Assembly: GCA_018667335.1 (NCBI GenBank) | Contig: JABIVD010000060.1 | Coordinates: 1 to 64,000 of the forward strand | Length of the DNA: 64,000 nt | From: Rhodospirillaceae bacterium | GTDB taxonomy: Bacteria; Pseudomonadota; Alphaproteobacteria; UBA6615 | Reading direction: 5' to 3' | In this document: positions 59,517-62,883 of the stretch, piece after piece | Numbering within the stretch: position 1 is the stretch's first letter | How the letters are laid out: each line of letters starts with the position of its first letter | Program-made: the position numbers and the translations under genes | Notes under the pieces: model-generated | Database searches by the model: none | What the model was told of the DNA's origin: nothing | What the model saw: only the letters and a program-made list of their open reading frames with translations

Positions 59517-59557
59517 GGCGCGGTTCCTCCTCCCGAGGGTTGCGCGGATGTTGCGCG

Positions 59558-59728
59558 CCGAAGAGGTCTCCTGGCTCCGGATCGACGGCCCTGTCGCATC
59601 CTTCCCGGCGAGACTGTTCGCCAGTGGGTGTCGCGCGGGGCCTGACCGTTACAGTTGCGGGGGCAGCGTCGGCGTTGGAACCGCTTGGTTCCGCACCGGA
59701 CTTCCCTGTTTCAGCGCTGCACCAAGGC
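59558..59728 (-). ncRNA. Cobalamin riboswitch
   Basis: All core elements are present on the minus strand: AACAGGGAAGTCCGGTG (ending near 59695), GCCCCCGCAACTGTAAC (59648-59664), GGGAAGGATGCGACAGGG (59589-59606) and GAGCCAGGAGACC (59565-59577). The 5' end runs into the last codons of cobC. A GCGCG/CGCGC hairpin and the cobU ribosome-binding site follow within 40 nt; no T-tract is present, so translational control is more likely. It should reduce cobU-cobW-cobN-cobO-cobQ expression when adenosylcobalamin is abundant. Confidence 0.96.
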
Positions 59729-60388
59729 TAGCATGGCGGTGTGATCGGGAACCAGCGTCGAGTCCTGGGTCGGGATCTGATTGATGTGGAAAATTGCCCA
59801 TGCGCCGTCCGGGTGGCTCTCGCTCGGCCCGAAATGGTCGATCCGCGTGAGCGAGCAATTGTCCACCTGGCAGGTCAGGGCCGCCTCGGGGTCGAGCTTG
59901 AGTGCATGCCCGATCGCGGCCCGGATGGTGCCGCCATGGGTCACGGCCACGATATCGCGGCCTGAATGTTCGGCGTTCAGGCGCTCGATCACGCCGGCGA
60001 CGCGCGCCATCAGGTCGGCGAAGCTCTCGCCGCCGGGCGCCTTCGTGTTGGCCGGTGCCAGCCAGAACAAGTGCTTGGGGTCCAGTTCGGCATACACGTC
60101 CTCGCGCTTGCGCCCCTGCCAGTCGCCGAAATCCTGTTCCGCCAGGTTTTCTTCGATATGGGGGTCGGGCAGGTGCAGCCCGGCCGCCTTGATGGCGTCG
60201 GCGGTCTGATGGGTGCGCTGCAGGTGGGATGTGACGAGAAGCGCATCTTCGGGCAGAAGGCGTGCCAGCCCGGCATAGGTCGGCGGGTCATTTGTGTCGG
60301 CGAGGGGATCGGTGTTGCCGTAAATTCGGCCTCCGGTCGAGCGGACCGGGGCGTGGCGCACCCACCACCAGCGTGTGCGTGTGGTCAT
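59711..60388 (-). CDS. cobC: Histidine phosphatase family protein, probable alpha-ribazole phosphatase
   Basis: This 225-residue phosphoglycerate-mutase-like phosphatase has the phospho-His in WVRHAPVR (RHA instead of the usual RHG), EQDFGDWQGRKRED, and the second His in AVTHGGTIRAAI. Its place directly after cobS argues for the CobC role, removing phosphate from alpha-ribazole phosphate or adenosylcobalamin phosphate. ATG 60388 shares one base with the cobS stop (TGATG). The last codons overlap the riboswitch. Confidence 0.87.
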   Translation of the reverse strand: MTTRTRWWWVRHAPVRSTGGRIYGNTDPLADTNDPPTYAGLARLLPEDALLVTSHLQRTHQTADAIKAAGLHLPDPHIEENLAEQDFGDWQGRKREDVYAELDPKHLFWLAPANTKAPGGESFADLMARVAGVIERLNAEHSGRDIVAVTHGGTIRAAIGHALKLDPEAALTCQVDNCSLTRIDHFGPSESHPDGAWAIFHINQIPTQDSTLVPDHTAMLALVQR

Positions 60389-62352: not shown

Positions 62353-62883
62353 CTAGTCACCCTCACAGCTGTGGGTCGGCAGGCCCGGCCCACCTGTGAC
62401 GGCGCTGCGTCGCTCGTACAGGATCACGTCGTGCCAGGCACCGTTGACATGGCCGAGCCGTTCACGTCGCCCGATCGCGCGGAACCCGCTGTCCGATAAC
62501 AAGCGCTGCGAGGCCTCGTTCGCGTCCAGCACCTGGGCCTGCAGCGTCCAGTAGCCTTCGGCCTCGGATACCGCGATCAGTTGCGCGACAAGCGAGGTGG
62601 CGATGCCGCCGCGACGGGCGCTCTCCGTAACATAGACGCTGACCTCAGCGACCCCGGCCGCGCCTCAGGTGTCGGGGACATGCGACAGGGCGGCCCAGCC
62701 ACACACATCGCCCGCGGCGTCGCGCGTGACGAGCCGGCCGAAGGCCAGATGATCGCGGTTCCATTCGGGCCATTTCGGCGGCGTCAGCGTGAATGCTGCG
62801 AGGCCGCCGGCCAGCCCCTCGCCATAGATGGCGCGGACCATGGGCCAGTCGTCGCGCTGCATGGTTTCGATCATGGCTTTCAT
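62353..62883 (-). pseudogene. GNAT N-acetyltransferase gene interrupted by one in-frame TGA
   Basis: Read through, this is a full-length 176-residue GNAT protein of the phosphinothricin-acetyltransferase-like group (COG1247 type): W..HLAFGRLVTRD, GWAALSHVPDT, [TGA], AAGVAEVSVYV, the acetyl-CoA motif ESARRGGIATSLV, and GFRAIGRRERLGHVNGAWHDV. The TGA (62665-62667, codon 73) is in the same frame as both halves, so there is no frameshift. In relatives, as I recall the family (SDRCVY.GVAEVSVY), the TGA position is Cys. It may be a nonsense mutation, a sequencing error, or a recoded selenocysteine codon. ATG 62874 is an alternative start. Confidence 0.8.

Follow-up and report, generated by a model that had tools for sequence, protein, structure and literature searches.

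A GNAT gene with an in-frame UGA

The window analyzed here is a 64,000 nt stretch of DNA from a Rhodospirillaceae bacterium (assembly GCA_018667335.1, contig JABIVD010000060.1), and it contains a GNAT N-acetyltransferase gene with a TGA at codon 73 (Table 1). The original prediction, made from sequence alone, held that one frame runs through this TGA with its GNAT motifs intact. This was borne out: the read-through product is 176 residues long and matches the Pfam GNAT models PF00583 (1.6e-10) and PF13420 (7.7e-9), both above their cut-offs. No strand had been given for the gene, which lies on the minus strand. Glu80 is invariant across the alignment and aligns with the conserved glutamate of PAT structures.

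Its neighbors are genes of a cobalamin region together with a cupin-like ORF. We found no conserved operon partner, and local synteny (the cobT-side gene and the cupin-side gene) was limited to the window's own family. Since there is no conserved operon partner, the neighborhood offers no pointer to a substrate. The cobalamin-biosynthesis region adjoining the gene also contains a cobalamin riboswitch (RF00174, 70.8 bits) at positions 59547-59746 of the window, on the minus strand.

Table 1. Features of the GNAT gene (coordinates in the window) and of the selenocysteine gene cluster of the same genome (other coordinates as prefixed).
Feature	Location	Strand	Details
Sec-containing GNAT N-acetyltransferase CDS (Sec inferred)	62353..62883	minus	176 aa with Sec73; TAG stop included
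Start codon ATG	62883	minus	
In-frame TGA, inferred selenocysteine codon (Sec73)	62667-62665	minus	codon 73 of 176
SECIS core hairpin (inferred)	62637..62650	minus	5-bp stem CGCTG/CAGCG, AGGT loop, 19 nt from UGA
Hairpin stem	62650-62646 paired with 62641-62637	minus	
Hairpin loop	62645-62642	minus	AGGT
Glu80 codon (GAG)	62644..62646	minus	strand beta4 motif VAEVSVYV; near acetyl-transfer site by homology
Tail Cys173 codon	62365..62367	minus	exactly 100 residues past Sec73; possible redox partner
Terminal stop TAG	62355-62353	minus	
selA	C5:153553-154899		sel cluster
selB	C5:154932-156803		sel cluster
tRNA-Sec	C5:163995-164086		71 bits; sel cluster
selD	C5:165381-166292		sel cluster
UGA-containing AhpC/TSA redoxin, UPYC motif	L088:13923-14393 (G000 contig C5)	plus	within sel cluster

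The UGA is conserved across an alphaproteobacterial clade

Searching the read-through protein against 60 related genomes recovered nine further genes (58-79% identity), every one of which contains a TGA at the same codon, within the motif PDTUGAAGVAEVSVYV. Further members, from MAGs labelled Rhodospirillaceae, Rhodospirillales or Alphaproteobacteria, were gathered from a named-genome collection, and a class-wide search brought in clade members from four additional families. UGA occupies codon 73 in all 23 clade genes, which come from marine alphaproteobacteria spanning at least five families, and neither cysteine nor any other codon was found at this position in any of the 23; a comparison suggested in the original prediction, of UGA against cysteine in close relatives, was thus settled in favor of UGA. 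In two members (G397 and G320) the residues next to the UGA are now Ser-Thr, with the UGA and the downstream hairpin unchanged. The UGA clade was monophyletic in two trees (support 100/99 and 100/100).

For close pairs, where dN/dS could be estimated, it ranged from 0.04 to 0.21 upstream of the UGA and from 0.09 to 0.24 downstream, so purifying selection acts on the protein to either side of the UGA. The downstream values argue that the part past the UGA is made and used.

Three members look damaged or unusual. Similarity is lost after the hairpin in G020 (L011), and G320 (L096) is out of frame or broken before it; the UGA and the SECIS element are intact in both. In G021 (L010/L080) a second in-frame UGA falls where relatives have tryptophan (ASUNAGH), and sequencing error, decay and a second selenocysteine cannot be told apart there.

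Two other explanations for the distribution of the UGA were considered and rejected. Sequencing error is ruled out, as 23 independent assemblies all show this codon. Viral spread was rejected given that no relatives were found in viral contigs and that the phage-record hits examined were only 30-41% identical.

An invariant hairpin follows the UGA

The original prediction also described a hairpin 19 nt after the TGA, with an AGGU loop closed by a 5-bp CGCTG/CAGCG stem, which held as described. The 16-nt core TCGCTGAGGTCAGCGT begins exactly 13 nt past the UGA in all 23 clade genes. Published limits for bacterial SECIS elements are a loop of 3-9 nt, a stem of 4-16 bp, a spacing of 16-37 nt, a G at loop position 1 or 2 and an MFE of <= -7.5 kcal/mol (PMC13188914); the hairpin meets these limits in its AGGU loop, its 5 bp and its UGA-to-loop distance. 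With the hairpin enforced, folding energies ranged from -10.0 to -20.3 kcal/mol over the 23 sequences, and the minimal consensus hairpin by itself came to -6.9 kcal/mol. The window's own 45-nt segment, folded whole, favored an alternative fold (-15.2 vs -11.9 kcal/mol). With the UGA and the 9 nt that follow it (12 nt in all) trimmed from the start, on the assumption that they are covered by the ribosome, the hairpin was part of the MFE fold in 20 of the 23 sequences. The consensus fold provided no covariation support, as the stem pairs are invariant across the clade, and no exact copy of the element was found elsewhere in the genome.

Because the stem also encodes the conserved AEVSV, it had been feared that the stem might have arisen by chance. 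Mean pS over the 21 usable genes was 0.64 before the UGA and 0.64 after it, compared to 0.02 over the six hairpin codons; no other six-codon window of the gene is as low, the minimum away from the hairpin being 0.375. The frozen synonymous sites, together with conservation in 23 of 23 genes, answer this concern. Stop-free relatives encoding the same AEVSV mostly use different codons, with one exception. The VAEVSV stretch of this stop-free gene (L012, genome G052) also carries the string GTCGCTGAGGTCAGCGT, and neither SelA nor a SelB-specific domain was found in its genome. The string may be there by chance, or the hairpin may possibly have existed as coding sequence before its use as a SECIS element.

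These data bear on the possibility that the UGA is a fresh nonsense mutation, or that the gene is a decaying pseudogene in this strain. In favor of this are the single in-frame stop and the damaged look of G020, G320 and G021. Against it, all 23 genes have the UGA, dN/dS is well below 1 on both sides of it, and the synonymous freeze is found at the hairpin only. We consider this explanation all but excluded, and we reject the fresh nonsense mutation that the original prediction had listed as one of two options.

The genome encodes selenocysteine machinery

The original prediction had proposed looking for selA, selB, selC and selD, and selA, selB, tRNA-Sec and selD are all present in a single cluster. 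More broadly, SelB was found in 17 of the 17 UGA-gene genomes handled, versus 6 of the 22 with stop-free relatives. The SelD protein (L088:17185-19416, plus strand) has a fused N-terminal pyridine-nucleotide-disulfide oxidoreductase domain (TIGR03169 + TIGR00476).

The most widespread bacterial selenoprotein is formate dehydrogenase alpha. The copy in this genome (G000:C50:44342-46396) has no in-frame stop despite the genome's ability to decode selenocysteine, and in its place we used the UPYC redoxin of the sel cluster as a positive control. This gene gives the genome a second selenoprotein, one of a known kind, and encodes a Prx-like thiol:disulfide oxidoreductase with a UxxC motif. It resembles the GNAT gene in having an in-frame UGA in the same genome, and differs from it in fold, in the sequence of its SECIS element and in being a known kind of redox selenoprotein.

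The UGA could instead be decoded in some other way, either by near-cognate read-through (e.g. as tryptophan) or through a reassigned genetic code. The second in-frame UGA of G021, where relatives have tryptophan, is the point in favor. However, the association with SelB, the full set of sel genes and a SECIS element at a fixed distance specifically suit selenocysteine. UGA also still serves as a stop codon, since the genes of G011, G022, L076 and L082 terminate in TGA, and a reassigned UGA code was rejected for the reason that several members have TGA as their own stop. We consider decoding other than as selenocysteine very unlikely.

The gene is thus very likely to encode a selenoprotein of the GNAT superfamily, and the other option of the original prediction, a new selenoprotein candidate, is strongly supported. 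The machinery and the conserved RNA element are shown; insertion itself is inferred, with no protein, mass-spectrometry or 75Se evidence. In the proposed mechanism, when a ribosome reaches UGA 73 the downstream hairpin would recruit SelB with Sec-tRNA(Sec), and selenocysteine would be inserted in place of termination.

An ArsN1/PAT-like fold with an altered substrate loop

The best NCBIfam match was ArsN1 family A (NF040503) at 102.3 bits, under the curated cut-off of 170. An AlphaFold model of the protein had a pLDDT of 81, falling under 50 in the tail that contains Cys173. Compared with the PDB, the model matched PAT best (Z 22.6), and matches to PAT/ArsN1 covered most of its length (Foldseek, VIA); the product is therefore predicted to adopt a PAT/ArsN1-type N-acetyltransferase fold. 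The common GNAT fold extends over nearly the whole length of ArsN1 family A/PAT structures (5jtf, 5wph, 9igl; Z 20-22.6), with the same order of motifs and the conserved glutamate in strand beta4, and ars-operon copies of this type are 40-50% identical to the UGA protein. The UGA protein differs from ArsN1 family A in having selenocysteine in the substrate loop, in the loss of the loop arginine and tyrosine, and in the addition of a tail cysteine.

The closest plasmid relatives are Hymenobacter genes (48-50% identical), and each of the three Hymenobacter copies examined adjoins an Acr3 arsenite pump. Relatives in Klebsiella and Rhodococcus either have ArsH/ArsR genes nearby or form a fusion with an ArsR-type regulator. 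All three Hymenobacter ars-operon copies have cysteine aligned with the selenocysteine (SSRCVYGG). Cysteine occurs at this column in 7 of the 29 stop-free relatives sampled, including the Hymenobacter three, and the column is otherwise variable, so that the claim that the UGA falls at a family cysteine position held only in part. One genome (G386) carries both forms: a UGA gene and, alongside it, an ordinary ArsN1-like paralogue that has neither an internal stop nor a tail cysteine (L094, L111).

In PpArsN1, Arg75, Ala76 and Arg77 of one chain enter the substrate site of the other chain, and Tyr80 likewise touches the ligand (PMC6465285). The segment P70-D71-T72-U73-G74-A75 aligns with R-P-R-A-A-Y of a PAT structure, corresponding to the ArsN1 gate loop (PMC6465285), and by homology Sec73 would lie in a loop that extends to the substrate site in the other subunit. 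At the positions of PpArsN1 Arg75, Arg77 and Tyr80 the UGA protein has Pro70, Thr72 and Ala75. Nearly all stop-free relatives have arginine one residue before the selenocysteine column and tyrosine two after it; in the UGA clade the loop arginine is replaced by threonine or asparagine and the loop tyrosine by alanine.

The protein might be an arsinothricin/phosphinothricin N-acetyltransferase (ArsN1/PAT) that just happens to carry selenocysteine. This is supported by ArsN1 family A being the top NCBIfam model and by the ars linkage or ArsR fusion seen in a number of the nearest annotated relatives (Hymenobacter, Klebsiella, Rhodococcus plasmids). Against it, the match falls short of the cut-off, the substrate-loop arginine and tyrosine are replaced in the UGA clade, and none of the neighbors of the window gene was recognised as an ars gene. 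We find this explanation unlikely. Because the arginine and tyrosine that bind arsinothricin and phosphinothricin are missing, these compounds are improbable substrates, and the substrate is likely to be something else.

A tail cysteine accompanies the inferred selenocysteine

A cysteine lies exactly 100 residues past the selenocysteine in all 22 complete members, typically in the motif G-L-P-T-x-x-C. It is the only cysteine conserved in all of them, and it is absent from all stop-free relatives examined. Sec73 and Cys173 may form a redox couple, an inference that we would neither favor nor dismiss: contact between the two is not shown, since the tail cysteine lies in the part of the model with pLDDT under 50.

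Alternatively, inserted selenocysteine might serve chiefly as a nucleophile in the active site or as a metal ligand, with no Sec-Cys couple and with another use for the tail cysteine (in folding or as a dimer contact). This reading is favored by the homology-based placement of the loop, toward the partner's substrate site, and by the low confidence of the model in the tail. What speaks against it is that all 22 complete UGA genes have the tail cysteine, always at +100, and that every stop-free relative examined lacks it; we disfavor this alternative slightly.

Under the redox-couple reading, the selenocysteine loop of a PAT/ArsN1-type fold would by homology reach the partner's active site, where the selenol at position 73 and the tail cysteine may form a reversible couple, a step that could as easily prove wrong as right. 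The couple might be a redox switch of the enzyme, or might let the enzyme act on, or shield it from, a soft electrophile or metalloid; here too the inference is evenly balanced.

Discussion

A 2022 list comprises 87 selenoprotein families and a 2026 prokaryotic inventory 119 (PMC13188914), and there is no acetyltransferase in either. We found no selenocysteine-containing acetyltransferase in the open-access literature searched, and no selenoprotein model in NCBIfam release 20.0 matched the product of the UGA gene; a report or GenBank annotation that we have not seen remains possible. The UGA genes likely represent a new selenoprotein family within the GNAT superfamily, for which we found no earlier case.

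Redox enzymes, many of them thioredoxin-like in fold, account for most bacterial selenoproteins, and selenocysteine is only rarely met outside such enzymes. The GNAT gene has in common with the 119 known families (PMC13188914) an in-frame UGA, a SECIS element with a G in the apical loop, and SelA/SelB/SelC/SelD. Unlike known bacterial selenoproteins, it has no UxxC, CxxU or thioredoxin fold, and its candidate partner cysteine is a C-terminal one, 100 residues distant.

A bolder reading is that this is the first GNAT to use selenocysteine, with the residue placed in a dimer-crossing loop and a C-terminal cysteine gained along with it for selenium redox or metalloid chemistry; the evidence leaves this reading in the balance. 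If it is true, the enzyme would be an acetyltransferase switched by, or acting through, such chemistry. The clade indicates that a SECIS element can sit within a conserved active-site strand motif (AEVSV). A standard gene call that ends the frame at the UGA would fragment such genes or overlook them. Selenocysteine in GNAT, a large acyltransferase superfamily, would broaden the known uses of selenium, and it raises the testable question of why an acetyltransferase would require both a selenol and a tail thiol.
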